From Roseivivax sp. GX 12232 (GTDB lineage: Bacteria; Pseudomonadota; Alphaproteobacteria; Rhodobacterales; Rhodobacteraceae): a DNA stretch of 64,000 nucleotides. The notes beneath the pieces are model-generated. The model saw nothing but the letters and a program-made list of their open reading frames with translations. It did not search any database and was not told the DNA's origin. Below, one piece after another: positions 4,029 to 41,970 of this stretch. Every line of letters begins with the position of its first letter. Position 1 is the stretch's first letter. Where the stretch lies: assembly GCF_021272185.1 (NCBI RefSeq), contig NZ_JAJSEC010000004.1:310001-374000 (forward strand). The letters run 5' to 3'. The position numbers and the translations under genes were made by a program.

Positions 4029-4195
4029 TGCGCCCGAACAGCACCGAAGGTGCCGGGCGCGCGCCGGACCGGCCCGATGGGCCGGCGCTCCTTGGGATGG
4101 CGCGCATAACTATCTTTTAGTCCTGACCTTGCTGCCATAAAGCGCCTCGCTCGAAGTTCAGAAGCGCCGGCCCCCGGTCCGCCGCGCGCCCTCTG
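4029..4195 (-). repeat. Dispersed palindromic element, copy 1
   Basis: One of five copies in the window of a roughly 167-bp element. It begins CGCCCGAACAGCACCGAAGGTGCC and ends GGTCCGCCGCGCGCCC. The ends form an inverted repeat, GGGCGCGCGCCGGACCGG against CCGGTCCGCCGCGCGCCC, with one mismatch in this copy. The centre has the conserved blocks GTCCTGACCTTGC and ATAAAGCGC. It lies between the convergent 3' ends of the H-lectin and pyrC-like genes. The rest of the gap (4196-4353) holds a G/T-rich stretch and a C9/A9 homopolymer pair near 4321-4337 but no gene. Confidence 0.85.
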
Positions 4196-4353
4196 GTGGT
4201 GCTGGTGGAGAGGGGTGCTGGCGGAGCGGGCGCGCTGGTGCCCAGGGGGCGTTGGCGGAGAAGGGGGCTGGCGAAAAGCCGGATGCCGTAGGACAGGGAC
4301 CGCCGCCCCTACCACTGCACCCCCCCCCAAAAAAAAACCTCACCACCCACACG

Positions 4354-5655
4354 TCACCCTGCCCGGTAGACCACCCGTCCGCCGACCAGCGTCATCAGCA
4401 CCCGGCCTTGCAGGCGGGCGTTGTCGAAGGGGGTATTCTTCGACTTCGACAGAAGCTTGAACCGGTCCAGAATGAACGGCTTGTCGGGATCGAAGAGCAT
4501 CAGGTCCGCGGGCGCGCCCTTGGCCATGCGGCCGGCCTCGAGCCCCAGCCGCCGGGCGGGGTTCAGCGACAGCGCGCGGAACAGCGCCGGCAGCTCCAGC
4601 TCGCCCGAATGGTAGAGCCGCAGCAGCACCGGCAGCATGGTCTCGAGACCCACCGCCCCCGAGGCGGCCTCCTCGAAGGGCAGGCGCTTGCTCTCCTCGT
4701 CCTGCGGCGTGTGCATCGAGGAGATCGTGTCGATCAGCCCGCTGCGCACCGCCTCGATCACCGCCTGGCGGTCCTCCTCGGAGCGCAGCGGCGGCTTGAC
4801 CTTGAAGAAGGTGCGGTAATCCGCGAGGTCCAGCTCGTTCAGCGTCAGGTGGTGGATCGAGGTGCCCGCGGTCACGTCGAAGCCGTTGCGCTTGGCGCGC
4901 TCCAGCGCGGGCAGGGCGCGGATCGTGGTGATCTGGTCGGCGTGGTAGCGCACGCCGGTCATCTCGACCAGGGCGATGTCGCGATCGAGACCCATGCGCT
5001 CGGCCATGGGCGAGACCGCAGGCAGCCCGCGCAGCGAGGCGAACTTGCCCGAGGTCGCCGCCGCGCCGCGCGACAGACCCGGCTCCTGCGGGTGGCCGAT
5101 GACCAGCGCGCCCAGGCCCTGCGCATAGGTCAGCGCCCGGGTCAGCACCCGCGTGTCCGCGATCACCCGGTCGCAATCGGTGAAGGCCACGGCGCCGGCA
5201 TCCAGGAGAAAGCCGAGCTCGGTCATCTCGGTGCCCGCGCGGCCCTTGGTCAGCGCCGCCATGGGCAGGACGCGCACCGGCGCGGCCTCCTGTCCGCGGC
5301 GGCGGATGAACTCCAGCGCCTCGGGGGTGTCGATCACCGGGTCGGTGTCGGGCCGGGTGACCAGCGTGGTCACGCCGCCCGCGGCCGCCGCCGCCCCGGC
5401 GGTCTTGTAGCTTTCCTTGTGCCGCTCACCCGGCTCGCAGACCTTCACGCCGATGTCGACGATGCCCGGGGCGAGCATCTTGCCGCCCGCCTCGACGCGG
5501 TTCTCGGGCGCGACGCGCTCGGTCAACCGCGGGCCGATCTCCGAGGTGATCTCGGAGATGCGCCCGTCCTCGATGAGCACATGGCCGTCCTCGACGGTGC
5601 CGGCCTCGGGGTCGACGATCCGCGCGCCGGTGATCAGGAGGTCCGCGCCCGCCAT
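4354..5655 (-). CDS. pyrX: Dihydroorotase-like protein, probably non-catalytic (PyrC'/PyrX type)
   Basis: A 433-aa amidohydrolase of the dihydroorotase type (third step of pyrimidine synthesis). Key residues are gone. The usual DxHxH after PGLV reads D67-I-G69-V-K71, so both metal-binding histidines are lost. The usual ATDHAPH reads S312-S-M314-H-T-P-Q, so the catalytic Asp is Met. H188 and H268 remain, and the FEEA-G-VGLET block after them is intact. Pseudomonads are known to carry such an inactive homologue (PyrC') beside pyrB, where it is needed to assemble aspartate carbamoyltransferase. I infer the same role here and expect an active pyrC elsewhere. It is the last gene of a three-gene overlapping minus-strand operon. 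Confidence 0.88.
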   Translation of the reverse strand: MAGADLLITGARIVDPEAGTVEDGHVLIEDGRISEITSEIGPRLTERVAPENRVEAGGKMLAPGIVDIGVKVCEPGERHKESYKTAGAAAAAGGVTTLVTRPDTDPVIDTPEALEFIRRRGQEAAPVRVLPMAALTKGRAGTEMTELGFLLDAGAVAFTDCDRVIADTRVLTRALTYAQGLGALVIGHPQEPGLSRGAAATSGKFASLRGLPAVSPMAERMGLDRDIALVEMTGVRYHADQITTIRALPALERAKRNGFDVTAGTSIHHLTLNELDLADYRTFFKVKPPLRSEEDRQAVIEAVRSGLIDTISSMHTPQDEESKRLPFEEAASGAVGLETMLPVLLRLYHSGELELPALFRALSLNPARRLGLEAGRMAKGAPADLMLFDPDKPFILDRFKLLSKSKNTPFDNARLQGRVLMTLVGGRVVYRAG

Positions 5656-6206
5656 CAGCGCACCACCAGGAAGGCCAGGGCGCCGAGCAGCATCGCGCCG
5701 ACCACGATGATCAGCGCCCGCAGAAGCGGCGAGCTGCCCCGCGCCAGCGGGTCGTCCGGCCCCTCGGAGCGCGGCGCCATGCCCTTGGTGCTCTCGGTCT
5801 TGATCGGCTCGGCGCGGGTCTCGGGGGCATGTTCGGAGAAGGTGCCGACCCAGTTGAGCGGGCTCGAGACGGTCAGCGTCTGGCCGGTGGCGCCGAAGGC
5901 CTGGCTCGGCAGGATCACCACATGGCCCTTGAGCCCGTCGATGCGGCCGCGCATCTGAGCGAACTCCGGCCCGGTGACGCCATGGGCCTCGGCCAGATAG
6001 GCCGAAAGCGGCATCTTGCCGAGGTCGCGGATCGCCACCACGTCAACGAGGCTCGGGCGCAGCCTGGTCGCGCCAAGCGCGTAGGACAGCGGATATTCCC
6101 CGGTGCCGGCCTGTGTGGTGAAGCGGTCGACCGCCTCGGGCGGCAGGTCGAGATGGAAGAGCCGCGTCACCCCGGTCTCGGAGGCGCGGATCTGCATCTT
6201 GGTCAT
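5655..6206 (-). CDS. Tail-anchored membrane protein of unknown function, between pyrB and the pyrC-like gene
   Basis: I do not recognise the family of this 183-aa protein. Residues 1-130 look globular and soluble ([28 protein letters not shown]). A polar, charged linker follows at about 130-162. A single hydrophobic segment ([19 protein letters not shown]) closes the chain, so it looks tail-anchored with its body in the cytoplasm. The start codon overlaps the pyrB stop by 4 bp and its stop shares a base with the next gene's ATG, so translation is probably coupled. The context suggests a link with the pyrimidine enzymes on either side, possibly membrane attachment; that is inference. Confidence 0.8.
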
Positions 6207-7153
6207 GCGGTCAGCTCCGTCGGTCGGGCGCGCAGGTTGCGCGCCAGTAGGTCCAGCGCCGCCATGCGCACGGCCACGCCCATCTCCACCTGTTCCTGGA
6301 TCACCGAGCGGTTGATGTCGTCGGCGATGGTGCCGTCGATCTCGACCCCGCGGTTCATCGGGCCGGGATGCATGACGATGGCATCGGGCTTGGCGACCGA
6401 GAGCTTCTCGGCATCGAGCCCGTAGCGGTAGAAATATTCGCGCTCGGAGGGGATGAAGCCGCCGTCCATGCGCTCGCGCTGAAGGCGCAGCATCATCACC
6501 ACGTCGGCGTCGCGCAGGCCCTCTTCCATGTCGTGGTAGACCTCGACGCCGAAGTCCTCGATGCCCGCGGGCATGAGCGTCGGCGGGCCGACGAGCCGCA
6601 CGCGGTTCTCCATCTTGTGCAAAAGCAGCAGGTTCGAGCGCGCCACCCGGCTGTGCGCGATGTCGCCGCAGATCGCCACGGTCAGCCGGTGCAGCCTCCC
6701 CTTGGCGCGGCGGATGGTCAGCGCGTCGAGCAGCGCCTGGGTCGGATGCTCGTGGCGCCCGTCGCCGGCGTTGACCACCGCGCAGTTGACCTTCTGGGCC
6801 AGAAGGTCGACCGCGCCCGAGTTCGGGTGGCGCACCACCAGGAGGTCGGGATGCATGGCGTTCAGCGTCAGCGCCGTGTCGATCAGCGTCTCGCCCTTCT
6901 TGATCGAGGAGGCGCCCATGGCCATGGACATCACATCCGCCCCGAGCCGCTTACCGGCCAGCTCGAAGCTTGCCTGGGTGCGCGTCGAGTTCTCGAAGAA
7001 CATGTTGATCTGGGTCAGCCCCGAGAGGATCCCCGAGCGCTTCTGCCGCGAGCGGTTCAGCGTGGCGTAGCGATCCGCCAGGTCGAGCAGCGTGGTGATC
7101 TCGTCGGGCCGCAGGGACTCGATGCCAAGAAGGTGGCGCTGGTCGAAACGCAT
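6203..7153 (-). CDS. pyrB: Aspartate carbamoyltransferase catalytic chain
   Basis: Catalyses carbamoyl phosphate plus L-aspartate to N-carbamoyl-aspartate, the committed step of pyrimidine synthesis. The 316-aa length is normal. The carbamoyl-phosphate site [12 protein letters not shown] is at about residues 53-64. HPTQALLD, the aspartate-loop region [10 protein letters not shown] and [11 protein letters not shown] are all intact. No regulatory chain (pyrI) gene is nearby. It is the first gene of the operon. An AAGGGAG ribosome site precedes it, and a good sigma70-type promoter lies about 35-65 bp upstream. Confidence 0.98.
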
Positions 7154-7188
7154 CGGCGGGGGGTGCTCCCTTCGGGGATTGTCGCAGC

Positions 7189-7217
7189 GTTATAGGAATG
7201 CCCCCCGGTCACAGCAA
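7189..7217 (-). promoter_or_regulatory. Sigma70-type promoter of the pyrB operon
   Basis: Read on the minus strand, TTGCTG (complement of 7212-7217) is followed after exactly 17 bases by TATAAC (complement of 7189-7194). Transcription would start near 7183, giving a leader of about 30 bases before the pyrB ATG. The short leader leaves no room for an attenuator. Confidence 0.65.
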
Positions 7218-7287
7218 GGGGGGCTTGGCGTCATCGGTGGTCGCCCGCCTTTCCTCCGGGCGCGTGGCGGGGATAAGGTCGCCGGTG

Positions 7288-8076
7288 ATGGATTCGCTCG
7301 ATTGGCATAGCGCGCAGGCGATGCTGGCCTGGCAGCACGAGATGGGCGTGACCGAGACGATCTCGGAAGCGCCCGTCGACCGCTTCGCCGCGGCCGAGGC
7401 GGCGCTGGCGGAGACCGCCGCGCAGGCCTCTGTGGCCGTGGCCGGCGCCAGCCGCGCCGTGGCCCAGGAGGACCCGGTGGCCGAGGCCGAGGCCGCCGCC
7501 AAATCCGCCCCTGACCTCGCGGCGCTGCGCGAGGCCATGGCCGGTTTCGAGCATTGCGAGCTGAAGCGCGGGGCGCGCAACCTGGTCTTCGCCGACGGCC
7601 GCCCCGAGGCCCGCGTCATGGTGATCGGCGAGGCCCCGGGCCGCGACGAGGACCGCCAGGGCAAGCCCTTTGTCGGCTCTGCCGGGCGTCTTCTCGACCG
7701 GATGTTCGCGGCGATCGGCCTCGACCGCGCGAGCGAGGGGCCGGGGGGCCTCTACATCACCAACGTGCTGCCCTGGCGGCCGCCGCAGAACCGCGAGCCC
7801 ACCGAGGAGGAGATCGCCATGATGCATCCCTTCCTCGCGCGCCATGTCGCGCTGGCTGCCCCCGAGGTGCTGGTGATCATGGGCAATATCTCGGCCTCGG
7901 CGGTGCTGGGCAAACGCGGCATCACGCGGCTCCGCGGCCGCTGGACCGAGGCGCTCGGCCTGCCGGTCATGCCGATGTTCCACCCCGCCTATCTCCTGCG
8001 CAATCCGCAGATGAAGCGCGAAAGCTGGGCGGATCTTCTGGACCTGCAGGCCAAGCTCGAGGAGACCCGCAGATGA
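7288..8076 (+). CDS. Uracil-DNA glycosylase, family-4-like without Fe-S ligands
   Basis: A 262-aa member of the uracil-DNA glycosylase superfamily, which removes uracil from DNA in base excision repair. Motif 1 (GEAPGRDEDRQGKPFVG) is at 114-130 and the HPAYLLRNP motif at 232-240. In family 4 a [4Fe-4S] cluster is held by four cysteines. Here the positions read F87, C90, W163 (LPWRPPQNR instead of KCRPP-NR) and M179, so only one remains. A Fe-S-free relative has been characterised from Bradyrhizobium. The region at 30-75 is Ala/Glu-rich and variable. I chose the ATG at 7288 because GGATAAGG precedes it; an upstream in-frame ATG at 7198 is less likely. The stop overlaps moaB. Confidence 0.88.
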   Translation: MDSLDWHSAQAMLAWQHEMGVTETISEAPVDRFAAAEAALAETAAQASVAVAGASRAVAQEDPVAEAEAAAKSAPDLAALREAMAGFEHCELKRGARNLVFADGRPEARVMVIGEAPGRDEDRQGKPFVGSAGRLLDRMFAAIGLDRASEGPGGLYITNVLPWRPPQNREPTEEEIAMMHPFLARHVALAAPEVLVIMGNISASAVLGKRGITRLRGRWTEALGLPVMPMFHPAYLLRNPQMKRESWADLLDLQAKLEETRR

Positions 8077-8615
8077 GCCGCATCGACGAGAGCCGCGAGT
8101 TCCTGCCGGTCCGCATCGCGGTCCTGACCGTCTCGGACACCCGCAGCCCCGAGGACGACCGCTCGGGCGACGTGCTGGCCGCGCGGATCGCCGAGGCGGG
8201 CCATGTGCTCGCCGCCCGCGAGATCCTGCGCGACGATCGGGAGGCCATCGCCGAGCGGCTGCGGTCCTGGTGCGCCGATCCCGGCATCGACGTTGTGATC
8301 TCCACCGGCGGCACCGGGCTGACCGGGCGCGACGTCACCGTCGAGGCGCATCGCGACGTCTACGAGAAGGAGATCGACGCCTTCGGGGTGGTCTTCACCC
8401 ATGTCTCCATGGCCAAGATCGGCACCTCGGCGGTGCAGAGCCGGGCCACCGGCGGCGTGGCCGCGGGCACCTATCTCTTCGCGCTGCCCGGCAGCCCCGG
8501 CGCCTGCAAGGACGCCTGGGACGAGATCCTGAAGCTTCAGCTCGACTACCGGCACCGCCCCTGCAACTTCGTGGAGATCATGCCGCGGCTCGACGAGCAT
8601 CTGCGGCGGAAGTGA
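8073..8615 (+). CDS. moaB: MoaB-type molybdenum cofactor biosynthesis protein
   Basis: A 180-aa MoaB/Mog-family protein, which binds molybdopterin and adenylates it during molybdenum cofactor synthesis. The conserved STGGTGLTGRDVTVEA block is at about 72-87 and the LPGSPGACKDAWDEIL block at about 136-151. The ATG at 8073 overlaps the stop of the glycosylase gene (ATGA), so the two are probably translated from one message. A longer frame upstream is only a shadow of the glycosylase gene. Confidence 0.93.
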   Translation: MSRIDESREFLPVRIAVLTVSDTRSPEDDRSGDVLAARIAEAGHVLAAREILRDDREAIAERLRSWCADPGIDVVISTGGTGLTGRDVTVEAHRDVYEKEIDAFGVVFTHVSMAKIGTSAVQSRATGGVAAGTYLFALPGSPGACKDAWDEILKLQLDYRHRPCNFVEIMPRLDEHLRRK

Positions 8616-8636
8616 GGGTTTTGGGACGTCTGAGCC

Positions 8637-8803
8637 GAGGGCGCGCGCCGGACCGGGGGCCGGCGCTGCTGACCTCCGAGCGGGGCGCTTTATGGCTGCA
8701 AGGTCAGGGCTAGGGGCGAGTTAGGCGCACCATCCCAAGGAGCGCCGGCCCATCGGGCCGGTCCGGCGCGCGCCCGGCACCTTCGGTGCTATTCGGGCGC
8801 AAG
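8637..8803 (+). repeat. Dispersed palindromic element, copy 2
   Basis: Second copy of the roughly 167-bp element, in the opposite orientation to copy 1. It begins GGGCGCGCGCCGGACCGG, contains GGCGCTTTAT and CAAGGTCAGGGC in the middle, and has CCGGTCCGGCGCGCGCCC followed by the GCACCTTCGGTGC hairpin and ATTCGGGCGCAAG at its end. It lies between the convergent ends of moaB and prs. The remainder of that gap (8804-9034) shows no gene or clear terminator. Confidence 0.9.
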
Positions 8804-9034
8804 TGGGGGCGGGATTGGGCACGGTTGGCAAAAGGGGATGGGGGGAGACTGTTTGATGGCTGGGGAGCGCCGCACTTCAGCGCGCGGTCAGCCCCAAGAC
8901 CGACGGTCAGTCCTCAACCAGCCTGCGGAGGCGCGTCGCCCCAAACGGCAAGCCCGAAGACCATCGGCCATCCCTCGGACAGCCTACCGCAAGGGGCGCC
9001 TCTTCACCGAAGCGCCCCCTCTCACCCCCTACTC

Positions 9035-10045
9035 TTAAAGGATCCCCTCGTAGATCGGCCCCAGCGTCTCCAGCTCGAAGAGCGAGGACACCGAGGTGCC
9101 GTTCCAGATGTTCAGGATCGCCTGCGCGAAGAGCGGCGCGGTGGGCACCACGCGGATGTTCGGCGCGCCCTTGGCCTCGGGCGTGGCGGCGATCGAATCG
9201 GTCACCACCAGCGATTTCATCACGCTGGCCGAGATTCGCTCCACCGCGGGGCCGGAGAGCACGCCATGGGTGATATAGGCATGCACCTCGGTGGCGCCGT
9301 GGTCCATCAGCACCTCGGCCGCCTTGCAGAGCGTCCCGGCGGTGTCGCAGATGTCGTCCACGATGATGCACTTCTTGCCCGAGACATCACCGATCACGGT
9401 CATCTCGGCGACCTCGCCGGCCTTCTCCCGGCGCTTGTCGACGATCGAGAGCGGCGCGTTGATGCGCTTGGCGAGCTCCCGCGCCCGCGCCACGCCGCCG
9501 ACGTCGGGCGAGACCACCATCAGGTCGTCCATCGAATCCTTGAACTGCGACTGCACGTCGAGCGCGAAGATCGGCGAGGCGTAGAGGTTGTCCACCGGGA
9601 TGTCGAAGAAGCCCTGGATCTGGGCCGCGTGCAGATCCATGGTCAGCACCCGCTCGATCCCCGCCGAGACCATCATGTTGGCCACCAGCTTGGCGGTGAT
9701 CGGGGTCCGCGCCTTGGTGCGGCGGTCCTGGCGGGCATAGCCGAAATAGGGGATCACCGCGGTGATCCGCGCCGCCGAGGAGCGCCGCAGCGCATCGGCC
9801 ATGATCAAGAGTTCCATCAGGTTGTCGTTCGCCGGGTTCGAGGTCGGCTGGATGATGAACATGTCCTCGCCGCGGACATTTTCGTAGACCTCGACGAAGA
9901 TCTCGGCGTCGTTGAACCTCTCGATCCGCGCGTCGACGAGGCCCACTGACATGCCCCGGTAAAGCGACATGCGGCGCGCGATGGATTTCGCGAGGTCGAG
10001 GTTGGCGTTCCCGGAGATGAGCTTGGGTTCGATGACGGTGGGCAT
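9035..10045 (-). CDS. prs: Ribose-phosphate pyrophosphokinase
   Basis: Makes PRPP from ribose 5-phosphate and ATP, the shared precursor of purines, pyrimidines, NAD, His and Trp. The 336-aa length is normal for the alphaproteobacterial form. Visible landmarks are [15 protein letters not shown] near the start, the ATP/pyrophosphate-binding [19 protein letters not shown] region, the flexible-loop [12 protein letters not shown] and the PRPP-binding loop [17 protein letters not shown]. It is encoded alone on the minus strand and is divergent from the isomerase gene. Confidence 0.98.
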
Positions 10046-10136
10046 GTGTCGCGCGGTCCATTTGGATTCGATATTGCCGCGCCCTTAGCATGGGCTAGGC
10101 TCGGCGGGAAAGCGCGACACCTCCAGGACCTTGAAT

Positions 10137-10736
10137 ATGCCGCATATCGACTACTATTTCGCGACCATTTCCCCCTTCACCTATCTCGCAGGGCGACGGC
10201 TCGAGGAGATGGCCGAGGCCCATGGCGCCTCGATCACCTACAAGCCGCTCGACATCGTGACGCTGTTTTCCCGCACCGGGGGCACCCCGCCCAAGGACCG
10301 GCACCCCTCGCGGCAGGAGTATCGCGCCCAGGACCTGCCGCGGCAGGCCAAGAAGGCGGGGCTGCCCTTTAACCTCAAGCCCGCGCATTGGCCGACCAAC
10401 GCGGCGCCTTCCTCCTACGCGGTGATCGCCGCGCAGAAGGCCGGCGGCGGCGACATGGGCGCGCTGGTGCACGCTCTCCTGCGGGCCTGCTGGGCCGAGG
10501 AGAGGGACGTGGCCGAGGACGACGTGATCAAGGCCTGCCTCAGCGAAGCGGGCTTCGACCCGGGGCTTGCCGACAGCGGCCTTCTGGCCGGGGCCGAGAC
10601 CTACGAGCGCAATCTCGAGGAGGCGGTGGCCAGCGGCGTCTTCGGCGCGCCCTTCTACGTCGTCGACAGCGGTGAGCGCTTCTGGGGGCAGGACCGGCTG
10701 TCCGACCTGGAGGACCACCTGGCGGGCCGGCTCTGA
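10137..10736 (+). CDS. DsbA-fold isomerase, 2-hydroxychromene-2-carboxylate isomerase family
   Basis: A 199-aa kappa-GST/DsbA-like thioredoxin-fold protein. It matches the 2-hydroxychromene-2-carboxylate isomerase family, whose founding members act glutathione-dependently in naphthalene breakdown. The N-terminal YYFATISPFTYLAG carries the family's active-site Ser. The C-terminus has VFGAPFYVVDSGERFWGQDRLSDLE, the family's cis-Pro loop and substrate end. No aromatic degradation genes are nearby, so the real substrate is unclear. I took the ATG at 10137, which has AGGA at a good distance, over a TTG two codons earlier. The stop overlaps the next gene (TGATG). Confidence 0.85.
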   Translation: MPHIDYYFATISPFTYLAGRRLEEMAEAHGASITYKPLDIVTLFSRTGGTPPKDRHPSRQEYRAQDLPRQAKKAGLPFNLKPAHWPTNAAPSSYAVIAAQKAGGGDMGALVHALLRACWAEERDVAEDDVIKACLSEAGFDPGLADSGLLAGAETYERNLEEAVASGVFGAPFYVVDSGERFWGQDRLSDLEDHLAGRL

Positions 10737-11584
10737 TGCCGCGCGACGCCGAGACCGGAGGCGGGGCCGGGGCCGACGGCAAGACCGGCGCCGTGCATCG
10801 CATCACGCTGGGTGCACCGCGCGGGCAGGGCGCCCCGGCGCTGGCGCTGCATTGCGCGCTGGCCCATTCCGGCGCCTGGGGCGGGCTGGCCGAGCGGCTG
10901 GGCGACCGGCTTGCGATCACCGCGCCCGACATGCCCGGCCATGGCCGCAGCGCCCCTTGGACGGGCCCCGGCCCCGAGAGCTTCCACGACCAGGTGACCG
11001 CCATCGGCGCCGAGCACCTGGAGCCGGGCCTCACGCTTCTCGGCCATTCCTTCGGCGCCACCGTGGCGCTGCGCCTGGCCGAGGATCACCCCGACAAGAT
11101 CCGCCGCATGGTGCTGGTCGAGCCGGTGCTTTTCGCCGCCGCGCGGGCGCGGGCGCCGGAGCTCTTCGAGGCGCGCCGCGCCGCGGGCCGCCCGATGATC
11201 GAGGCGGTCGAGGCCGATGACCTCGACCGCGCGGGACGGGTCTTCACCGCGACCTGGGGCGCGGGCCGTCCCTGGGACGAGATGGGCCCCCGCGCCCGGG
11301 CGCAGATCGGCCGGCAGATGCGGATCGTGGGCGAGACCCAGGCGACGCTGAACGAGGATGCGGCGGGGCTCCTGGCGCCGGGACGGCTCGAGACCTGCGC
11401 CCTGCCGGTGCTTCTGGTGCGGGGGGAGACGACCGAGCCGATCCTCGCGGAGATCCATGCCGAGCTTCTCGCCCGGCTGCCCGAGGCGCGTGAGGTGGTG
11501 ATCCCCGGCGCGGGTCACATGGCGCCGATCACCCATCCCGAGGAGGTGGCCGCCGAGGTCCGGGCCTTCCTCGACGCGACCTGA
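10736..11584 (+). CDS. Alpha/beta hydrolase
   Basis: A 282-aa alpha/beta-hydrolase-fold enzyme of unknown substrate. ITAPDMPGHGRSAPW precedes the nucleophile elbow LLGHSFGATVALRLAE (Ser in GHSFG at about residue 105). The acid is likely in the VLLVRGE region, and the catalytic His is in PGAGHMAPITHPEEVA near the C-terminus. There is no signal peptide. It overlaps the isomerase gene by one base, so they form a two-gene operon. It ends convergent to plsY. Confidence 0.88.
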   Translation: MPRDAETGGGAGADGKTGAVHRITLGAPRGQGAPALALHCALAHSGAWGGLAERLGDRLAITAPDMPGHGRSAPWTGPGPESFHDQVTAIGAEHLEPGLTLLGHSFGATVALRLAEDHPDKIRRMVLVEPVLFAAARARAPELFEARRAAGRPMIEAVEADDLDRAGRVFTATWGAGRPWDEMGPRARAQIGRQMRIVGETQATLNEDAAGLLAPGRLETCALPVLLVRGETTEPILAEIHAELLARLPEAREVVIPGAGHMAPITHPEEVAAEVRAFLDAT

Positions 11585-11594
11585 AGAGTGCCTG

Positions 11595-11628
11595 CGGGCG
11601 TCCGCCCTGGCGGGAGGACGCTCCCGGC
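11595..11628. terminator. Possible hairpin terminator between convergent genes
   Basis: GCGTCC (11598-11603) can pair with GGACGC (11616-11621), and an alternative CCGCC/GGCGG hairpin lies inside it. There is no T-run, so a role in ending the hydrolase and plsY transcripts is only suggested by position. Confidence 0.35.
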
Positions 11629-11634
11629 AGCCGC

Positions 11635-12243
11635 CTAGCTCTTCTGCCCGATCTTCGGCTCGGTCCCGGCTTTCAGCCGCGCAATATTCGTCCGGTGCCG
11701 CCAGTAGATCAGCAGCGTCAGCACCGCGCCGAGGAACAGCGCCTCGGGCCGGGCCAGCAGCACCATCCAGATCGTGGCGCTGGCCGCCGCGACCAAGGCG
11801 CCGAGCGAGGAGATCCGCGTCAGCGCCACGCCCGCGATCCACATCGCGCAGGCCAGCCCGCCCACGACCCAGTCGAGCGCCAGCAGGATGCCGAGGAAGG
11901 TCGCCACCCCCTTGCCGCCGCGAAAGCCCAGCCAGACCGGGTAGCAATGCCCCAGGAAGGCCGCGAGCGCCGCGATCTGCGCCGCGTCCTCGCCCGCGAG
12001 CGCGCGCGCCAGCAGCACCGCGGCCGAGCCCTTGGCCCCGTCGAGCAGCAGCGTCGCCGCCCCCGCCGCCTTGGAGCCGGTGCGCAAGACGTTTGTCGCC
12101 CCGATGTTGCCCGAGCCGATGCCGCGCGGATCGGCAAGCCCCATGCCACGCGTGACGATCAGGCCGAAGGGGATCGAACCCAGGAGGTAGCCGATCACGG
12201 CCCAGATCAGAAGAAGGGTCGGCGCGGTGTCGAGAGGCGGCAT
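11635..12243 (-). CDS. plsY: Glycerol-3-phosphate acyltransferase PlsY
   Basis: An inner-membrane enzyme that moves the acyl group from acyl-phosphate to glycerol 3-phosphate, the first step of phospholipid synthesis. The 202-aa length is normal, with about five membrane segments. The three known motifs are visible: SGNIGATNVLR, the GxLKG-like AKGSAAVLL region, and GFRGGKGVATFLG. I chose the ATG at 12243. The frame stays open for another 4.5 kb upstream, antisense to the efflux genes, but that extension is not coding. Confidence 0.95.
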   Translation of the reverse strand: MPPLDTAPTLLLIWAVIGYLLGSIPFGLIVTRGMGLADPRGIGSGNIGATNVLRTGSKAAGAATLLLDGAKGSAAVLLARALAGEDAAQIAALAAFLGHCYPVWLGFRGGKGVATFLGILLALDWVVGGLACAMWIAGVALTRISSLGALVAAASATIWMVLLARPEALFLGAVLTLLIYWRHRTNIARLKAGTEPKIGQKS

Positions 12244-12277
12244 GGCGGCTCCGGGGTCGTGGGGGCAATTGCCGGCG

Positions 12278-12305
12278 ACATTACAGCCGGAGGGGGATTG
12301 GTCAA
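12278..12305 (-). promoter_or_regulatory. Likely promoter of plsY
   Basis: On the minus strand, TTGACC (complement of 12300-12305) is followed after 16 bases by TAATGT (complement of 12278-12283), about 35 bp before the plsY start codon. The match is good at -35 and moderate at -10. Confidence 0.5.
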
Positions 12306-12454
12306 TCGGCGGGGCTCCGGGGGAGGGGCGGTGTGGCCCGCGGGTTTGGGGGGGCTGGCTCGTTCCGCGCACCGACACCCAAAAAATTCCGCCGCCCCGC
12401 GACGGATCCCGGGCCCGCCCACGTAACACTCCGGTGAGAGCCGCCTGCGGCGCT

Positions 12455-12482
12455 TTGGAAATTTCTCCCATCCGGCTATCTC
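12455..12482 (+). promoter_or_regulatory. Possible promoter of the RND efflux operon
   Basis: TTGGAA (12455-12460) and TATCTC (12477-12482) are 16 bases apart and lie 55 bp before the adaptor start codon. TATGAT at 12487-12492 is another candidate -10. No operator-like palindrome is evident and no regulator gene is adjacent. Confidence 0.35.
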
Positions 12483-12537
12483 GCGCTATGATGGAAACAC
12501 TTGGCCGCGCCTCTGCGGCGCTGGCGAACGAGGTGGA

Positions 12538-14007
12538 ATGCGCTTTCTCCGACGCTCCCTGACGGGTCTCTTCCTCCTGGCGGCGACGCTGGGGCTCCTG
12601 GTCTATGCCGGCACGCTGATCCAGGGCGCCGTGGCGACCCGCATGGCCGACGAGCCGCGCATGCCCGAGGGCCGCGAGCGGGTCTTCGCGGTCAATGTCG
12701 TGACCGCCAACCCGGGCACCGAGGTGCCGGTCCTGACCGCCTATGGCGCGGTGGAAAGCCGCCGCACGCTGGAGATCCGCACCGAGGCAGCGGGGCGTAT
12801 CGTCGAGCTCTCCGAGGATTTCGACGCCGGCGGCGAGGTCACCGAGGGCCAGCTTCTCGCGCGCATCGACCCCGCCGATGCCGAGGCGGCGCTGGCGCGC
12901 GCCCGCTCGGCGCTGACCGACGCCCGGGCCGAGGCCCGCGACGCCCGCCGCGCGGTGGAACTGGCCGGGGCCAACCTCGAGGCCGCCGAGGAACAGGTGG
13001 CGCTTTATGAACGCGCCTTCGCCCGGCAGGAGGACCTGCGCGAGCGCGGCGTCGGCAGCGCCACGGCGGTGGAGACCGCCGAGCTGCAGGCCTCGGCGGC
13101 GCGCGCCACGGTGATCCAGCGCCGCCAGGCCCTGGCCGATGCCGAGGCCCGGGTGGCCCAGGCCGAGACCGTGATCGCCCGCAGCGAACTGGACGTGGCC
13201 GAGGCCGAGCGCCGCCTGTCCGAGACCGAGATCCGCGCGGGCTTCGCGGGCGTGCTGGCCGATGTGACGGTGGTCGAGGGGCGGCTCGTCTCGGCCAACG
13301 AACAGATCGCCACGCTGATCGACCCCGATGCGCTGGAGGTGGCCTTCCGGGTCTCGACCCAGGGCTTCGCGCGGCTCCTGAGCGATGACGGCCGGGTCCG
13401 GCGCGCCCCGGTCAGCGCGACGCTGGATGTCTTCGGCACCGACCTGGTGGCCGAGGGGGTGATCGACCGCGCCAGCCCGCAGGTCGCCGAGGGCGAGACC
13501 GGGCGGCTGATCTACGCGCGGCTGACCTCGGCGGCGGGCTTCCAGCCGGGTGACTTCGTGACCGTCCGGGTCGAGGAGCCGCCGCTCTCGCAGGTCGTGC
13601 GCCTGCCCGCCACCGCGCTCGGCAGCAACGGCCGGGTGCTGCTGGTCGGCGCCGAGGACCGGCTCGAAGAGGCGGATGTGACGCTCCTGCGGCGCCAGGG
13701 CGACGCGGTGCTGGTTGCGGGCGAGGCCCTCGCCGGGCGGCAGGTCGTGGCGCAGCGCACGCCGCTTCTCGGGCCGGGCATCAAGGTGCGGACCCGCGAC
13801 CTCGACGCCGGGGCGGCCGAGGAGGCGGCCCCCGCGGGCGATGAGTTGATGGAGCTCTCCGAGGCCCGCCGCGAGAAGCTGCGCGCCTTCGTCGAAGGCA
13901 ATGCCCGGATGCCCGAGGACGCCAAGGAGCGCATCCTCGCCCAGCTCAGCGAACCGCGCGTGCCCGCGGCCATGGTGGCCCGGCTCGAAGCGCGGATCGG
14001 GGGCTAG
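12538..14007 (+). CDS. RND efflux periplasmic adaptor subunit (membrane fusion protein)
   Basis: A 489-aa HlyD/AcrA-type adaptor that links an inner-membrane RND pump to an outer-membrane channel. Residues 5-28 form one N-terminal membrane anchor or uncleaved signal. The lipoyl half-motif (TLEIRTEAAGRIVELSEDFDAGG) is at about 79-101, and a long Ala/Glu/Arg coiled-coil hairpin spans about 115-225. The second lipoyl half, ETEIRAGFAGVLADVTVVEG, and beta-barrel domains follow. The last 50 residues are an unusual charged helical tail (LSEARREKLRAFVEG). A GAGGTGG ribosome site precedes the ATG. The pump gene starts 3 bp after the stop. Confidence 0.93.
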   Translation: MRFLRRSLTGLFLLAATLGLLVYAGTLIQGAVATRMADEPRMPEGRERVFAVNVVTANPGTEVPVLTAYGAVESRRTLEIRTEAAGRIVELSEDFDAGGEVTEGQLLARIDPADAEAALARARSALTDARAEARDARRAVELAGANLEAAEEQVALYERAFARQEDLRERGVGSATAVETAELQASAARATVIQRRQALADAEARVAQAETVIARSELDVAEAERRLSETEIRAGFAGVLADVTVVEGRLVSANEQIATLIDPDALEVAFRVSTQGFARLLSDDGRVRRAPVSATLDVFGTDLVAEGVIDRASPQVAEGETGRLIYARLTSAAGFQPGDFVTVRVEEPPLSQVVRLPATALGSNGRVLLVGAEDRLEEADVTLLRRQGDAVLVAGEALAGRQVVAQRTPLLGPGIKVRTRDLDAGAAEEAAPAGDELMELSEARREKLRAFVEGNARMPEDAKERILAQLSEPRVPAAMVARLEARIGG

Positions 14008-14010
14008 GGC

Positions 14011-17000
14011 ATGGGCGGTCGGACGAGCGCGCTTTTCGGACTGTTTTCCTATTTCACCCGGCACCGGACGCTGGCGAACCTGCTGTTCGTGGTGATGCTG
14101 GCCGCCGGGGCCTTCGCCGTGCCGAACATGCGCGCGCAGTTCTTCCCCGACGTGGTGATCGACGAGATCGACGTCACCGTCACCTGGGAGGGCGCGGGCG
14201 CCGAGGATGTCGACCAGGGCATCGTGCAGCTTCTCGAACCGGCGCTTCTCTCGGTCGACGGGGTCGAATCGAGCCGCGCCCGCTCGCGCGAGGGGGTGGC
14301 GGCGATCGAGCTGGAGTTCGAGCCCGGCTGGGACATGGGCCGCGCCACCAACGACGTGCGCCAGGCCGTCGACAGCGTGACCCAGCTGCCCGAGGACGCC
14401 GAGGAGCCCGAGATCGGCCGCTCGACCTGGTTCGACCGGGTGACCGACGTGGTGATCCAGGGGCCCATCGCGCCCGAGCAGCTGGCCAATTACGCCGATA
14501 TCTTCGTGAACCGGCTTTTCGCCGAAGGGGTGACCAACACCACGATCCGCGGCCTCTCGGCGCCCGAGACGGTGGTCGAGGTCTCCTCGACCAGCCTGAT
14601 CGCCCATGACGTGACCCTGCGCGAGATCGCCGCGGCGATCGGCGGCGAGGTCGACGCCGACCCGGCGGGCGAGGTCGAGGGCGCCAACGCCCGGGTCCGC
14701 ACCGGCACCGAGAAACGCGCCGCCGACGAGATCGAGACCATCGTTCTGCGCTCCAACCCCGACGGCACCAAGCTGACCGTCGGCGACGTCGCCAGCATCC
14801 GCGTCGAGGGCGTGACCCGCGAGCGCAGCTATTACGTCGGCGAGAACCCCGCCATCTCGATCCGGGTCGACCGCACCGCGCGGGGCGACGCCATCGCCAT
14901 CCAGCGCGAGGTCGAGGAGGTCGCCGCCGAGCTCGAGGCCGAGATGCCCGAGGGCGCCTCGATCGACCTGATCCGCAAGCGGGCCGACATGATCTCGGGG
15001 CGGCTCGACATCCTGGTCGACAACGGGCTGATGGGGCTCGGGCTGGTGGTCTGCCTGTTGTTTCTGTTCCTCAACGCCCGGATCGCCTTCTGGGTGGCCG
15101 CGGGCATCCCGACCGCCATGCTGGCGGCCATCGGGCTCATGTATCTGGCCGGGCTCACGATCAACATGATCTCGCTTTTCGCGCTGATCATCACGCTGGG
15201 GATCGTGGTCGACGACGCCATCGTCGTGGGTGAACATTCCGACCACCTCGCCCGGCGCGGGCTCGGGCCCGCCGCGGCGGCCGAGACCGCGGCGGCGCGC
15301 ATGGCGCTGCCGGTCTTCTGCGCCACGCTGACCACGGTGATCGCCTTCTTCGGGCTGGTGCTGATCGGCGGGCGCTTCGGCTCGCTGATCGCCGACATCC
15401 CCTTCACCGTGATCGCGGTGCTGATCGCGAGCCTCGTCGAGTGCTTCCTGATCCTGCCCAACCACATGCGGCACGCGCTCAGCCATGCCGACAAGCGGCA
15501 TTGGTACGACGCGCCCTCGCGTGTGGTGAACCGGGGCTTCCGCTGGGCCCGCGAGCGGCTCTTCCGCCCGCTCATGGGCTGGGTGATCGCGGGCCGCTAC
15601 GTGGTGCTGGCGGGCACGGTGGTGCTGCTGGCCGGGCAGACCGCGCTCTTGATCAAGGGTGATGTGCCCTGGCGCTTCTTCAACGCGCCGGAACAGGATT
15701 CGGTGACCGGCAATTTCGCCATGGCGCCGGGCGCCGACCGCGCCGACAGTTTCGAGCAGATGCGCGCCATGCAGCGCGCGGTCGAGGAGCTGGCCGCCGA
15801 ATACGAGGAGCGCCACGGCGCCAACCCGGTGGAATACGTCCTCTCCGAGATCGGCGGCAACACCGGGCGCGGGCTCTCGGGCACCGAGAACAAGGAGCCC
15901 GACCAGCTGGGCTCCATCGCGATCGAGCTGATCTCCGCCGACCTGCGGCCCTATTCCTCCTTCCAGTTCGTCGGCGAGCTGCAGGAGCGGGTCGAGCGGC
16001 ACCCGCTCTCCGAGACGGTGAGCTTCCGGGGCTGGCGCTCGGGGCCGGGGGGCGACGCGCTCGACGTGCAGTTCTTCGGCGCCGATGCGAGCACGCTGAA
16101 GGCCGCCGCCGAGGACCTGAAGACCGAGCTGTCGCAGTTCCCCGAGGTCTCGGCGCTGGAGGATGACCTCTCCTACGACAAGGAAGAGCTGATCCTCGAT
16201 CTGACCGCGCGCGGCCAGGCGCTGGGCTTCGACATCGACACGCTGGGCCAGACCCTGCGGGCGCGGCTCGGCGGCGTCGAGGCCGCGACCTACCCGGTGG
16301 GCCCGCGCTCGGCGGCGATCCGGGTGGAGCTGCCCGAGGGCGAGCAGACCGCCGATTTCCTCGAACGCATGCAGCTGCGCACCCCCGAGGGGGCTTACGT
16401 GGCGCTGGCCGACATCGTGCAGGTCGAGCGGCAGGCGGGCTTTTCCACGGTCCGCCGCGAGAACGGCGTGCGGCTGATCTCGGTGAACGGCGATCTTTCC
16501 GAGGACGACCCCGCCCGCGCCGCCGAGGTCATGCAGGCGCTCGAGGACGAGATCCTGCCCGGCATCGCCGCCGAGCGGCAGGTCGACTATCGGCTCTCGG
16601 GGCTCTCCGAACAGGAGGACGAGTTCATGGCCGACGCGCTGGCGGCGCTGGTCATGGTGCTCCTGGGGATCTTCCTGGTGCTCGCCTGGGTCTTCGAGAG
16701 CTGGTCGCGGCCCCTGGTGGTCATGGCGATCATCCCCTTCGGCCTGGTCGGCACGATCCTCGGGCATTGGCACTGGGACGTGCCGATGTCGATGTTCACG
16801 GTGGTGGGGCTCCTGGGCATGACCGGGATCATCATCAACGACAGCATCGTCCTGGTGACCACGATCGACGAATATGCCGCCGAGCGGGGCATCCTGCCGG
16901 CCATCGTTGACGGCGCCGCGGACCGGCTGCGGCCGGTGCTGCTGACCACGCTGACGACGGTGCTGGGGCTGGCGCCTTTGTTGTACGAGGGGTCCTCGCA

Positions 17001-17391
17001 GGCCGAGTTCCTGAAGCCCACGGTGATCACGCTGGTCTACGGGCTGGGCTTCGGGATGCTGCTGGTGCTGCTGGTGGTGCCCGCGCTGATCGCCATCGGA
17101 GAGGATTTCGCCCGGGCCAAGGCCAGCGTGCGGCGCGGGCTGCGCTTCCGCCGCCGCGGGGCGCGGCTGGGCTATCTCGCCGGGTTTTTTGCGGTGCTGG
17201 GCTGGCTGGCGCTGACCATGGGCTGGCAGATCGTCACCGGCGCGCTGGCGGGGGTCTTGGCTGGGGTGATGCCGGTGGAGGGCACCCTCGGCGCGCTCCT
17301 GCTGTTCCTGGTGGGCACCGCGCTGGCGCTGGTGCTGGCCTATGTGCTGCTGGCCGGCCGGATGGCGCTGGCTGGGCGGCGGCGGGTGTGA
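14011..17391 (+). CDS. RND family efflux pump, inner-membrane transporter
   Basis: A 1126-aa AcrB/HAE-type resistance-nodulation-division transporter, a proton-driven pump with 12 membrane helices and two large periplasmic loops. The first helix (LANLLFVVMLAAGAFAVPNM) is at about 19-38. The proton-relay helix 4 carries LGIVVDDAIVVGEH with the paired aspartates. The second half repeats this with GLLGMTGIIINDSIVLVTT. A C-terminal extension of about 90 residues (from about 1035) adds two or three extra hydrophobic segments beyond the normal 1030-1050 length. It forms an operon with the adaptor. No outer-membrane factor is nearby, so it presumably uses a TolC encoded elsewhere. The substrate cannot be read from the sequence. 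Confidence 0.94.
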   Translation: MGGRTSALFGLFSYFTRHRTLANLLFVVMLAAGAFAVPNMRAQFFPDVVIDEIDVTVTWEGAGAEDVDQGIVQLLEPALLSVDGVESSRARSREGVAAIELEFEPGWDMGRATNDVRQAVDSVTQLPEDAEEPEIGRSTWFDRVTDVVIQGPIAPEQLANYADIFVNRLFAEGVTNTTIRGLSAPETVVEVSSTSLIAHDVTLREIAAAIGGEVDADPAGEVEGANARVRTGTEKRAADEIETIVLRSNPDGTKLTVGDVASIRVEGVTRERSYYVGENPAISIRVDRTARGDAIAIQREVEEVAAELEAEMPEGASIDLIRKRADMISGRLDILVDNGLMGLGLVVCLLFLFLNARIAFWVAAGIPTAMLAAIGLMYLAGLTINMISLFALIITLGIVVDDAIVVGEHSDHLARRGLGPAAAAETAAARMALPVFCATLTTVIAFFGLVLIGGRFGSLIADIPFTVIAVLIASLVECFLILPNHMRHALSHADKRHWYDAPSRVVNRGFRWARERLFRPLMGWVIAGRYVVLAGTVVLLAGQTALLIKGDVPWRFFNAPEQDSVTGNFAMAPGADRADSFEQMRAMQRAVEELAAEYEERHGANPVEYVLSEIGGNTGRGLSGTENKEPDQLGSIAIELISADLRPYSSFQFVGELQERVERHPLSETVSFRGWRSGPGGDALDVQFFGADASTLKAAAEDLKTELSQFPEVSALEDDLSYDKEELILDLTARGQALGFDIDTLGQTLRARLGGVEAATYPVGPRSAAIRVELPEGEQTADFLERMQLRTPEGAYVALADIVQVERQAGFSTVRRENGVRLISVNGDLSEDDPARAAEVMQALEDEILPGIAAERQVDYRLSGLSEQEDEFMADALAALVMVLLGIFLVLAWVFESWSRPLVVMAIIPFGLVGTILGHWHWDVPMSMFTVVGLLGMTGIIINDSIVLVTTIDEYAAERGILPAIVDGAADRLRPVLLTTLTTVLGLAPLLYEGSSQAEFLKPTVITLVYGLGFGMLLVLLVVPALIAIGEDFARAKASVRRGLRFRRRGARLGYLAGFFAVLGWLALTMGWQIVTGALAGVLAGVMPVEGTLGALLLFLVGTALALVLAYVLLAGRMALAGRRRV

Positions 17392-17735
17392 GGTGGGTTT
17401 GGTGGTCGGGGCTGGGTGGTTCTGGCTTGAGGGTTAGGGGCCGAAGTGTCTCGCCCGCAGCGGACCGATTAACGGGCGCGCCGGCCGAGCGGTGAGGGTT
17501 CGCCCTGGCCGAGAGGGGGCGTGCTGGCCGAGAGGGCGCGCGCGCTGTCCGAGATGCGAGGGCGGACTCTGGCTGCGAGGTCAGGGATTGCGCAGGCCGA
17601 GACGTGAAGCTCACGCCGAACGACAGGCTTGGCGTGCCCCCCATAAACCAGCGTTCCCGACCCAAGGCGCTCCGACCAACTTGTCACCCCGGGCTTCCCT
17701 TCCACCCTCTCACCCCGCGCCTCCCCGAAAGGCAA

Positions 17736-17901
17736 AGGGCGCGCGCCGGACCGGGGGCCGGCGCTGCCACCCTCTGGGCTTTGCGCTTTATCCCCACAAG
17801 GTCAGGACTAGAGAAAAGCTAAGCACGCCACCCCAAGGAGCGCCGGCCCAAGGGGCCGGTCCGGCGCGCGCCCGGCGCCTGCGGCGCTGTTCGGGCGCAA
17901 G
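17736..17901 (+). repeat. Dispersed palindromic element, copy 3
   Basis: Third copy, in the same orientation as copy 2. It begins GGGCGCGCGCCGGACCGG and has TTTGCGCTTTAT and CAAGGTCAGGACTA in the centre. CCGGCCCAAGGGGCCGG forms a 7-bp stem in its right half, and GCGCCTGCGGCGC replaces the usual small hairpin. It ends TTCGGGCGCAAG. A fragment of the same end (GTGCTATTCGGGCGCAAG) recurs at about 17981-17998. The copy lies between the convergent ends of the RND pump and the 133-aa unknown gene. The other parts of this gap (17392-17735 and 17902-18069) show no gene. Confidence 0.88.
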
Positions 17902-18069
17902 ACGCGCGTGTTGCGAGCGTGGTTCTTGATGACAGACTGATTGGCTTGCATCAGAAGAAGGCCGGGCCCGGTGGCTGTGGTGCTATTCGGGCGCAAGGGT
18001 TCGCTAACGGTGGGCAGCGTGCCTAAGGGCCGAAAGCAGGCCCTCACCGGCCAGCCCAAACACCACCCC

Positions 18070-18471
18070 TCATCCCTTCGTCAGCCGGTCCGCCTTCTTT
18101 CGCACTAGCACCGTGCGCAGGTCGTGCATCGCCAAGAGCAGCGCGTCGGTCACCTCGTCGAGCTGCGCGTCGCTGGCGCGGCTCTGGGCCCATTGCGTCG
18201 TCAGGTTCATGTGGTCGATCGCCCGGTGGATGTCGTCGATGTCGCGCAGCGCCAGGAGCGCCTTGCGCTTGTCCATCCAGTCGCGGATCTCGGCCAGGTC
18301 CTCGTCCGACAAGACCCGGTCGCCCTGCGGCTTGATCTCGCCGTTGCGGATATTGGCCACCGCGATCGGGTCCATGTCGATCCGCCTCTGGCGGTTCTCG
18401 GTGTCGATCCGAAAGACCAGCGCGCCGTTCTCGCGGATGCGGAAGTAATACTCGGGAAGATCGCCCGCCAT
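18070..18471 (-). CDS. Conserved small protein of unknown function downstream of an aminotransferase
   Basis: A 133-aa soluble, highly charged protein that I do not recognise as a named family. The first 60 residues look beta-rich (EYYFRIRENGALVFRID), and the rest looks alpha-helical (DEDLAEIRDWMDKRKALLA and DAQLDEVTDALLLAMHDLRTVLVRKK). It starts 9 bp after the aminotransferase stop, so the two are probably co-transcribed. The start is supported by that tight spacing. There is no signal peptide, membrane segment or Cys cluster. Confidence 0.75.
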   Translation of the reverse strand: MAGDLPEYYFRIRENGALVFRIDTENRQRRIDMDPIAVANIRNGEIKPQGDRVLSDEDLAEIRDWMDKRKALLALRDIDDIHRAIDHMNLTTQWAQSRASDAQLDEVTDALLLAMHDLRTVLVRKKADRLTKG

Positions 18472-18480
18472 GGCTGGCCC

Positions 18481-19719
<1,239 letters not shown>

Positions 19720-19779
19720 TTACGGGGGCGGAGACCACGGCGCAAGGCGCGCCCTGCCACGGTGAGGAGAACAGGATTG

Positions 19780-20172
19780 ATGAGCGATTTCGATTGGTAC
19801 GGCCCCGATGCCGCGACCTTCGGAGACCGGATCGCCGGGGCCCGCGAGGCCGCCGGCATGACGCCTGAACAGCTGTCGCGGCGGCTGGGGGTGAAGCTGA
19901 AGACGCTGCAGAACTGGGAGAACGACCTCTCCGAGCCGCGCGCCAACAAGCTGTCGATGATCTCGGGGCTGCTAAACGTCTCGATCATCTGGCTTTTGAC
20001 CGGCGAGGGCGAGGGCGTCTCGCCGCCGGGCGAGGAGCCCGCCGGCAGCCAGGACCTGCGCGAGGCCATCGCCGAGCTGCGCGCGATCCGCGTCGAGATG
20101 CAGGCGCTGGCCGACCGCTCCGCGCGGCTCGAGAAGCGCCTGCGCGCCACCGGCCAGACGGAGCCCGCATGA
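19780..20172 (+). CDS. XRE-family transcriptional regulator
   Basis: A 130-aa protein with a helix-turn-helix of the Cro/XRE type at about residues 13-68 (GDRIAGAREAAGMTPEQLSRRLG, then KTLQNWENDLSEPRANKLSMISG). A C-terminal helix with heptad-like Leu/Met spacing (LREAIAELRAIRVEMQALADRSARLEKRL) probably makes it a dimer. The target is unknown. The ATG at 19780 was chosen because GGTGAGGAGA precedes it and the frame upstream overlaps the aminotransferase. The stop overlaps the sdhE start by 4 bp, so the two are co-translated. Confidence 0.88.
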   Translation: MSDFDWYGPDAATFGDRIAGAREAAGMTPEQLSRRLGVKLKTLQNWENDLSEPRANKLSMISGLLNVSIIWLLTGEGEGVSPPGEEPAGSQDLREAIAELRAIRVEMQALADRSARLEKRLRATGQTEPA

Positions 20173-20468: not shown

Positions 20469-20511
20469 GGCCGGGGTAGGGCCGGAGGAGGGCCGGGGGC
20501 TCGTCCGGCTT

Positions 20512-20540
20512 AACCCTTCCTTGGGGGTTTTGCGTTTTCC
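20512..20540 (+). terminator. Weak hairpin followed by T-runs after sdhE
   Basis: AACCC (20512-20516) can pair with GGGTT (20525-20529), followed by TTGCGTTTT. The stem is short, so this is a tentative terminator in the 104-bp gap before the MarR gene. Confidence 0.4.
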
Positions 20541-20572
20541 TGCCGCCAATCGCGCAATTGCGGAGGCGGCGG

Positions 20573-21460: not shown

Positions 21461-21471
21461 AGCGCGCTATA

Positions 21472-21495
21472 GTCATCCGGTTGGCACAGGATGAC
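21472..21495. repeat. Inverted repeat GTCATCC-N10-GGATGAC
   Basis: Perfect 7-bp arms at 21472-21478 and 21489-21495 with a 10-base spacer, just after dispersed element copy 4. It could be an operator or a remnant. It is about 450 bp before the next start codon. Confidence 0.5.
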
Positions 21496-41411: not shown

Positions 41412-41435
41412 ACCTCCTCTTGCGGGAGGGATGGG

Positions 41436-41465
41436 AACCGCCCTTGGGGGCGGTTTTTTGTTTTT
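41436..41465 (+). terminator. Intrinsic terminator after tRNA-Ala
   Basis: AACCGCCC (41436-41443) pairs with GGGCGGTT (41448-41455) with a 4-base loop and is followed by TTTTGTTTTT. Confidence 0.93.
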
Positions 41466-41584
41466 GGGGTTGGTGGTTTGGAGCGCGAATGGCGCGGGGT
41501 CGTAGTGCGGCGCACCGCTCCGCTCAGTTCCGGGATCAACGCGTAATCTTTCGCCGTCTCCCACCTCTCCACGACCTCCCACCG

Positions 41585-41835
41585 TCAGCCACCCAAAGCC
41601 CCTCCTTTGCGCCCGAACAGCACCGAAGGTGCCACGCAGAGGCCCAAGCGGCCTCTTGTGTCCGAAGGGCACCTAAGCGGCCACGCTGAGTCCAAAGCCC
41701 CTCCTTGCGTCCGAACAGTTCCGAAGGTGGCCCGCAGGGGCCCAAGCGACGTCTTGCGTCCGAAGGGCACCGAAGATGCCACGCTGGGTCCAAAGCCGCT
41801 TCTTGCGCCCGAATAGCACCGAAGGTGCCGGGCGC
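41585..41835. repeat. Minisatellite with a 49-bp period merging into dispersed element copy 5
   Basis: The block CCGAA starts at 41613, 41662, 41711, 41760 and 41809, exactly 49 bases apart each time. Units 1 and 3 resemble each other (GAACAG, CGCAGRGGCCCAAGCG), and units 2 and 4 resemble each other (GAAGGGCACC, GCCACGCTG, GTCCAAAGCC), so there is a higher-order 98-bp repeat. The unit contains CGAACAGCACCGAAGGTGCC, the end hairpin of the dispersed element. The fifth unit is itself the end of element copy 5. Confidence 0.9.
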
Positions 41836-41970
41836 GCGCCGGACCGGCCCCTTGGGCCGGCGCTCCTTGGAGTGGTGCGCTTAGCTTGTCGTTTGTCCTG
41901 ACCTTGCTGGGATAAAGCGCATAGCTCAGAGGGCAGCAGCGCCGGCCCCCGGTCCGGCGCGCGCCCTCTG
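41803..41970 (-). repeat. Dispersed palindromic element, copy 5
   Basis: Fifth copy, oriented like copy 1. The small hairpin CGCCCGAATAGCACCGAAGG begins it. The perfect 18-bp inverted arms are GGGCGCGCGCCGGACCGG (41830-41847) and CCGGTCCGGCGCGCGCCC (41949-41966). The centre has GTCCTGACCTTGC and ATAAAGCGC. It lies between tRNA-Ala and the MscS gene on the same strand. From 41971 to 42185 I see no gene. Confidence 0.92.

Follow-up and report, generated by a model that had tools for sequence, protein, structure and literature searches.

Within a 64,000-nucleotide stretch of the Roseivivax sp. GX 12232 genome (contig NZ_JAJSEC010000004.1, positions 310,001 to 374,000; hereafter the window) lie five copies of a dispersed palindromic element. 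All five are found by covariance model where the original prediction, made from the letters alone, had put them (Table 1). Genes were called with a purpose-built hidden Markov model, and nine of ten tested proteins flanking the copies have Pfam matches. By this evidence copies 1–3 lie between convergent genes and copies 4 and 5 between same-strand genes, with none between divergent genes, as had been proposed. It had also been stated that no transposase is nearby, which holds for the ten flanking proteins to which the check was limited.

The element is about 165 bases long and G+C-rich. In its own orientation it opens with arm a (GGGCGCGCGCCGGACCGG) and arm b (GGGCCGGCGCT), continues through a centre of about 70 bases carrying GCGCTTTAT and AAGGTCAGGAC, and ends with arm b′ (AGCGCCGGCCC), which a short loop separates from arm a′ (CCGGTCCGGCGCGCGCCC), followed by a tail hairpin closed by CGGGCGC. 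The flanks of 37 copies define its ends as CAG/AGGG... and ...GCAAG/ (slash, element boundary), and its folds are very stable on both strands. The inner hairpin and the central blocks noted earlier are visible in the sequence, as is the end hairpin, of which three paired variants occur. The predicted 18-bp inverted ends are present as well, with one mismatch in an arm of copy 1, and the element reaches past the limits first given to it, through a closing stem to ...TTCGGGCGCAAG. At its gathering cut-off Rfam places no family on the element (a tRNA is the sole match in the window), which led us to reject a known RNA family; a lax threshold yields only three weak matches, at copy 4.

Table 1. 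Copies, parts and tail-only units of the element in the window (window positions).
Feature	Position	Strand	Basis or remark
Copy 1, covariance-model match	4030-4191	-	score within 138-152 bits
Copy 2, covariance-model match	8639-8800	+	score within 138-152 bits
Copy 3, covariance-model match	17737-17898	+	score within 138-152 bits
Copy 4, covariance-model match	21295-21456	+	score within 138-152 bits
Copy 5, covariance-model match	41805-41966	-	score within 138-152 bits
Copy 1 with tail	4016-4198	-	profile and covariance model; convergent flanking genes
Copy 2 with tail	8635-8812	+	profile and covariance model; convergent flanking genes
Copy 3 with tail	17733-17909	+	profile and covariance model; convergent flanking genes
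Copy 4 with tail	21288-21470	+	profile and covariance model; same-strand flanking genes
Copy 5 with tail	41791-41972	-	profile and covariance model; same-strand flanking genes
Copy 3, arm a	17737-17754	+	pairs with a′
Copy 3, arm b	17755-17765	+	pairs with b′
Copy 3, GCGCTTTAT block	17783-17791	+	near-invariant in alignment
Copy 3, arm b′	17839-17849	+	pairs with b or a′
Copy 3, arm a′	17856-17873	+	pairs with a, b′ or tail
Tail-only unit array adjoining copy 5	41601-41781	-	three tail-only profile matches
Weak tail-only unit 3′ of copy 3	17965-18003	+	profile match, 14.5 bits

Here, we find that the element keeps its shape while its letters change. For the covariation tests, 29 copies were aligned with MAFFT with no structure fitting. 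Helices a:a′ with b:b′, b′:a′ and a′:tail outscored all 500 shuffles and all slid controls, and the same helices top the covariation list in 71 non-redundant copies. Some count measures are weaker; for example, the number of double-change pairs in b′:a′ was reached by 66 of the 500 shuffles. These helices exclude one another in part, because a′ is common to several. Together with compensating arm changes between genera, the covariation tests bear out the earlier claim that structure rather than sequence is kept. Among own-genome copies (82 rows, 76 of them distinct and 39 fetched by likeness to two query copies), stems diverge from the consensus by 1.8% and other columns by 14%.

The same contrast appears in copies that have stayed in place. 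Comparison of eight stretches from each of two congeners, G005 and G007, showed four sites at which both carry a copy. Two of these pairs were counted; the other two, L294/L108, whose G007 copy has lost its likeness in the 3′ part, and L293/L302, were left out. In the two counted copies, 0 of 140 paired sites and 23 of 185 unpaired sites changed (p = 2e-6), and change in the loops is near that of the partly coding flanks (79 of 574 aligned sites). Given this split between paired and unpaired sites, selection probably acts on the shape of resident copies. At one of the omitted sites (L293:3300-4000 / L302:3250-3950), which the congeners share, a copy of another subfamily stands in opposite orientation inside the remains of an older copy.

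The five window copies are a small sample. A 39-base piece of the 3′ stem (b′-a′) has 227 matches in the genome with at most three mismatches, indicating at least 227 copies; the reversed pattern, used as a control, has none, which rules out a chance repeat. Profile searches of 464 kb (positions 1-400000 of contig C1 plus the window) returned 47 matches, comprising 37 copies, every one with a full-length core, and 10 tail-only units; no longer relative occurs there. Direct doublets, two like-oriented copies 86–186 bases apart, occur at seven loci on C1. Tail hairpin units also stand in tandem by themselves beside a full copy, both next to copy 5 (Table 1) and at C1:90717-90912. A C-rich stretch (consensus roughly CCCTCTCAACCC...CACCAG) immediately precedes many own-genome copies and is missing from others. 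Over about 350 bases on each side, GC skew along the element strand runs positive, negative, core, positive, negative in the own genome, independently of gene orientation, and the pattern is weaker in other genera.

Beyond this genome, the element is widespread in the family, as the covariance-model search proposed in the original prediction reveals. Plain DNA comparison matched 10 of 61 genomes, own included, and its only match outside the family (G040) spans just 27 bases. A covariance model built from 29 sequences, R1, matched 23 of the 61, all in Rhodobacteraceae, and none of 24 genomes of other families. At a threshold of 1e-6, R1 matched at least 113 of 246 family genera (one genome each, own included), a lower bound given that the scan scored 11 candidates per genome. 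In a class-wide draw the single match among 192 genomes was the own genome; at least two further family members in the draw had no match. A pattern scan of named genomes gave at least 88 stretches, and R1 confirmed 66 of the 80 tested, with 85 copies in all. Confirmed stretches come from Roseivivax, Pseudoroseicyclus (17 of the 66), Allosediminivita, Ruegeria, Paracoccus and Thioclava, among others, genera that we take to be Rhodobacteraceae in the wide sense. The 14 stretches without a match include Brenneria, Clostridiales and Burkholderiales, and also Pseudotabrizicola, presumably a member of the same family. A single Ruegeria query copy (L127) found no match in phage records. In plasmid records a Thioclava copy (L158) found none and the Ruegeria copy matched six, from Salipiger and Pacificitalea; the copy on an annotated Salipiger plasmid lies between two convergent genes and that on a Pacificitalea plasmid between same-strand genes. 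In low-copy genomes, ten flanking proteins of six loci have no Pfam family in common, and a shared host gene was rejected on this basis. A search of open-access full-text literature, outside which most subscription papers lie, gave no description of the element, in line with its having been called undescribed-looking.

Placement is skewed towards convergent gene ends. At 63 loci in the named genera, a good part of them from one species and counted without 13 copies at stretch edges and one inside a predicted gene, flanking genes are convergent in 28 cases, same-strand in 32 and divergent in three, versus 21, 112 and 51 for 184 control gaps of at least 80 bases (p = 4e-11 for the convergent excess, 7e-6 for the divergent deficit). 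The own genome gives 13, 15 and 2 for 30 loci versus 30, 115 and 45 for control gaps (p = 3e-4 and 0.03; base-weighted, 0.017 and 0.15). The inferred preference for gene 3′ ends, with divergent gaps shunned, is borne out by both counts. Relative to the gene, the two orientations are almost balanced, with 10 copies in the same and 9 in the opposite direction in the own genome, and 22 and 14 in other genera. Median lengths of gaps with copies are 515–845 bases, versus 65–201 without.

What the element does at gene ends is constrained by several observations. Termination, one of the roles originally suggested, finds no support: there is no U-run 3′ of the palindrome, no intrinsic terminator site falls at the outer palindrome (window 3700-22000), and ordinary terminators are about as common at gene ends beside copies (12 of 41, two of them inside a copy) as elsewhere (44 of 201), in addition to the near-even orientation. 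In two copies, a loose terminator scan does accept a small inner hairpin that stands before TTTAT. Action as RNA of one strand also lacks the expected mark, a tolerance of G-U above A-C, in the main stems. Counts of G-T and A-C mismatches are 30 and 24 for a:a′, 2 and 5 for b:b′, and 9 and 22 for b′:a′; summed over helices in the own genome, they are 22 and 22 (82 rows). At same-strand loci, the transcript strand has 28 G-U versus 21 A-C (p = 0.39). Since G-T and A-C are about equal in the main stems, shape seems to be kept there as DNA or on both strands. The tail pairs are the exception: G-T outnumbers A-C by 47 to 10 in the outer tail stem, where its two end pairs account for 36 of the 47, and by 39 to 5 in the inner, where a single pair accounts for 37. 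Roles in supercoiling and RNA end protection, which had also been suggested, are possible.

Copies come and go at given sites. For 10 of 25 element gaps in C1, both flanking genes lie within 400 kb of G005, and in nine cases they are adjacent there. Eight of these nine collinear gaps have no copy in G005, and the ninth has a diverged copy in opposite orientation; the 400 kb of G005 hold three copies versus 32 in C1. Mobility, raised earlier as a possibility, is supported by this turnover and by the nested copy, though no enzyme was tied to the element. Among 76 own-genome copies, r2 is 0.15 at neighbouring bases and falls to chance level beyond 10 bases, and all four combinations are present in 45 of 45 tested site pairs. 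This suggests that the copies are mosaic, although part of the signal can be put down to recurrent mutation in the free loop columns. In Pseudoroseicyclus tamaricis there is less mixing (r2 of 0.038 at >40 bases, versus 0.017 by chance). The long flanks of one locus are no more complementary to each other than those of different loci.

Several window copies coincide with changes in gene order. The window has the block order A-B-C-D, whereas in all eight congeners B neighbours both the end of C and D, with B split in G003. Within 3718-12529, a block of about 4.2 kb (4361-8613) has moved relative to these congeners; of the three new junctions, two are occupied by copies 1 and 2. A 3-kb block that is sited elsewhere in G004 and G005 has copy 3 on one side and copy 4 on the other, and copy 5 lies at a difference in gene content. 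Collinearity with G005 in C1 holds for 9 of 10 testable element loci versus 67 of 67 testable gaps without copies, and the element as a general rearrangement breakpoint was rejected on the strength of those nine.

With a little less than even confidence, we favour a folded DNA element, family-wide in Rhodobacteraceae, whose shape acts at gene 3′ ends in either orientation. Its four mutually complementary arms (a, b, b′ and a′) and one-sided tail permit alternative folds, either one long stem-loop (a:a′ with b:b′) or local hairpins (b′:a′, and a′ with the tail). On the mode of action and spread, we infer that the folded shape would act in situ and independently of orientation, most likely as DNA, with the palindrome between transcription units either extruded or bound by protein. 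New sites would be reached by a process that probably recognises structure, and loss would remove copies that land near promoters or inside genes. A fuller version, which we regard as possible but doubtful, sees in it an ancient DNA structure of the entire family that has a resident role where transcription units converge, is maintained by shape rather than sequence, and spreads by a structure-recognising or template-switching process that leaves short-range mosaics; the element could also seed rearrangements. Several points weigh against our favoured account. Neither an enzyme nor an exact empty site turned up, and the flanks of 37 copies, read by eye, showed no obvious target duplication. 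The closest copies differ at 12 positions in the own genome and 10 in P. tamaricis; with no near-identical pair among the copies compared, no recent burst is seen. A range from none detected to more than 200 copies per genome is odd for an essential role, and the tail, with its G-T excess, may work as RNA. The orthologue count covers just two copies, and stems could also stay alike through gene conversion. Private changes in 37 unselected copies (19 in 76 paired columns, 18 in 89 unpaired) point the opposite way to the orthologues and would favour no resident selection; we do not rely on them, as saturated loop columns hide private changes and so confound the test.

The leading readings are an orientation-independent DNA structure and hairpins in both converging transcripts. 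According to the latter, hairpins in the RNAs arriving from both sides would shield mRNA ends or assist in ending transcripts that converge. Convergent and 3′-end placement fits, as do the stable folds of both strands and the 50 bases before the core, which are C-rich from either side in the own genome; a need on both strands would likewise equalise G-T and A-C. Terminators beside copies are not depleted, however, the transcript strand at same-strand loci has no significant G-U excess and a U-run is missing, and we consider this explanation unlikely. It is also conceivable, if rather improbable, that the element is a selfish non-autonomous repeat with no resident role, its stems alike through gene conversion or because only well-folded copies spread. 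Turnover of positions, the nested copy, direct doublets and the loss of linkage among the 76 copies agree with this; promoter avoidance can be read as simple tolerance, and private changes seemed equal in stems and loops in the confounded test. On the other hand, orthologous copies in place keep their stems and not their loops, and near-identical copies are lacking. A classical miniature inverted-repeat transposable element, cut from a DDE insertion sequence and moved by its transposase through fixed ends, would account for the size, the inverted ends and their homogeneity within a genome. Counting against it are end arms that change in compensation between genera, flanks with no obvious duplication when read by eye and the absence of a longer relative from the 464 kb, and we deem it very unlikely. 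Least credible, and nearly negligible, is a REPIN mobilised by a RAYT (Y1 transposase), for all that the element is palindromic, intergenic and of high copy number: Y1_Tnp (PF01797) was found neither in the own genome nor in eight congeners, and within the family only in G015 and G023, with 5 of 14 control genomes positive. For the own genome this explanation is refuted within the reach of the Pfam model.

An abundant non-coding element present in nearly half of the sampled genera of a large bacterial family bears on an old question, whether extragenic palindromes are parasites or working parts. With its shape conserved and the stems fixed in resident copies, that question becomes testable. 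The element also offers a system for studying how repeats spread without a recognised transposase.

Finally, we compare the element with known repeats, taken here as the cited passages describe them. ERIC (IRU, RU-1) of enterobacteria is a 127-bp repeat with TA ends and reported 3′-end effects (PMC2229807, PMC10969869). Like our element, it is an intergenic palindrome of similar size, family-wide and present in tens to hundreds of copies. The ends differ (AGGG.../...GCAAG in an element of about 165 bases), as do the arms, which in our element vary between genera by compensation. Identity with ERIC was rejected from the ends, which as read in the flanks of 37 copies lack the TA dinucleotide; this is a comparison of ends and not of sequences. 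REP, BIME and REPIN have units of 20–40 bp with a GTAG-type tag and a Y1 enzyme, TnpA-REP (PMC8266576); they too are high-copy extragenic palindromes in which structure is important, but no such enzyme was found in the own genome. CIR, an alphaproteobacterial intergenic repeat of Caulobacter and Brucella (PMC2229807), similarly has two inverted-repeat arms and a linker, and is distinguished, by description, by its GANTC. Br-REP1/2 of Bradyrhizobium are alphaproteobacterial palindromic repeats in 3′ ends, one of them between convergent genes (PMC5082802), although their palindromes are far shorter and their sequences different. The HRC-8-4 motif comes from the same order, Rhodobacterales, and occupies mainly one type of locus, between cco operons (PMC8632094); its stem is followed by a U-run, unlike ours, and the cited passage does not describe it as a dispersed repeat. 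YPAL (RU-2) of Yersinia is about 168 bp long, and its insertion next to dyad symmetry goes with duplications of 3–26 bp (PMC2229807). By description, YPAL and our element share size, internal inverted repeats, intergenic location and a composition that is not A+T-rich, whereas duplications are not obvious by eye at our element. Our best reading is that the element would work much as the ERIC and YPAL repeats do while forming a distinct family, set apart from YPAL by description.

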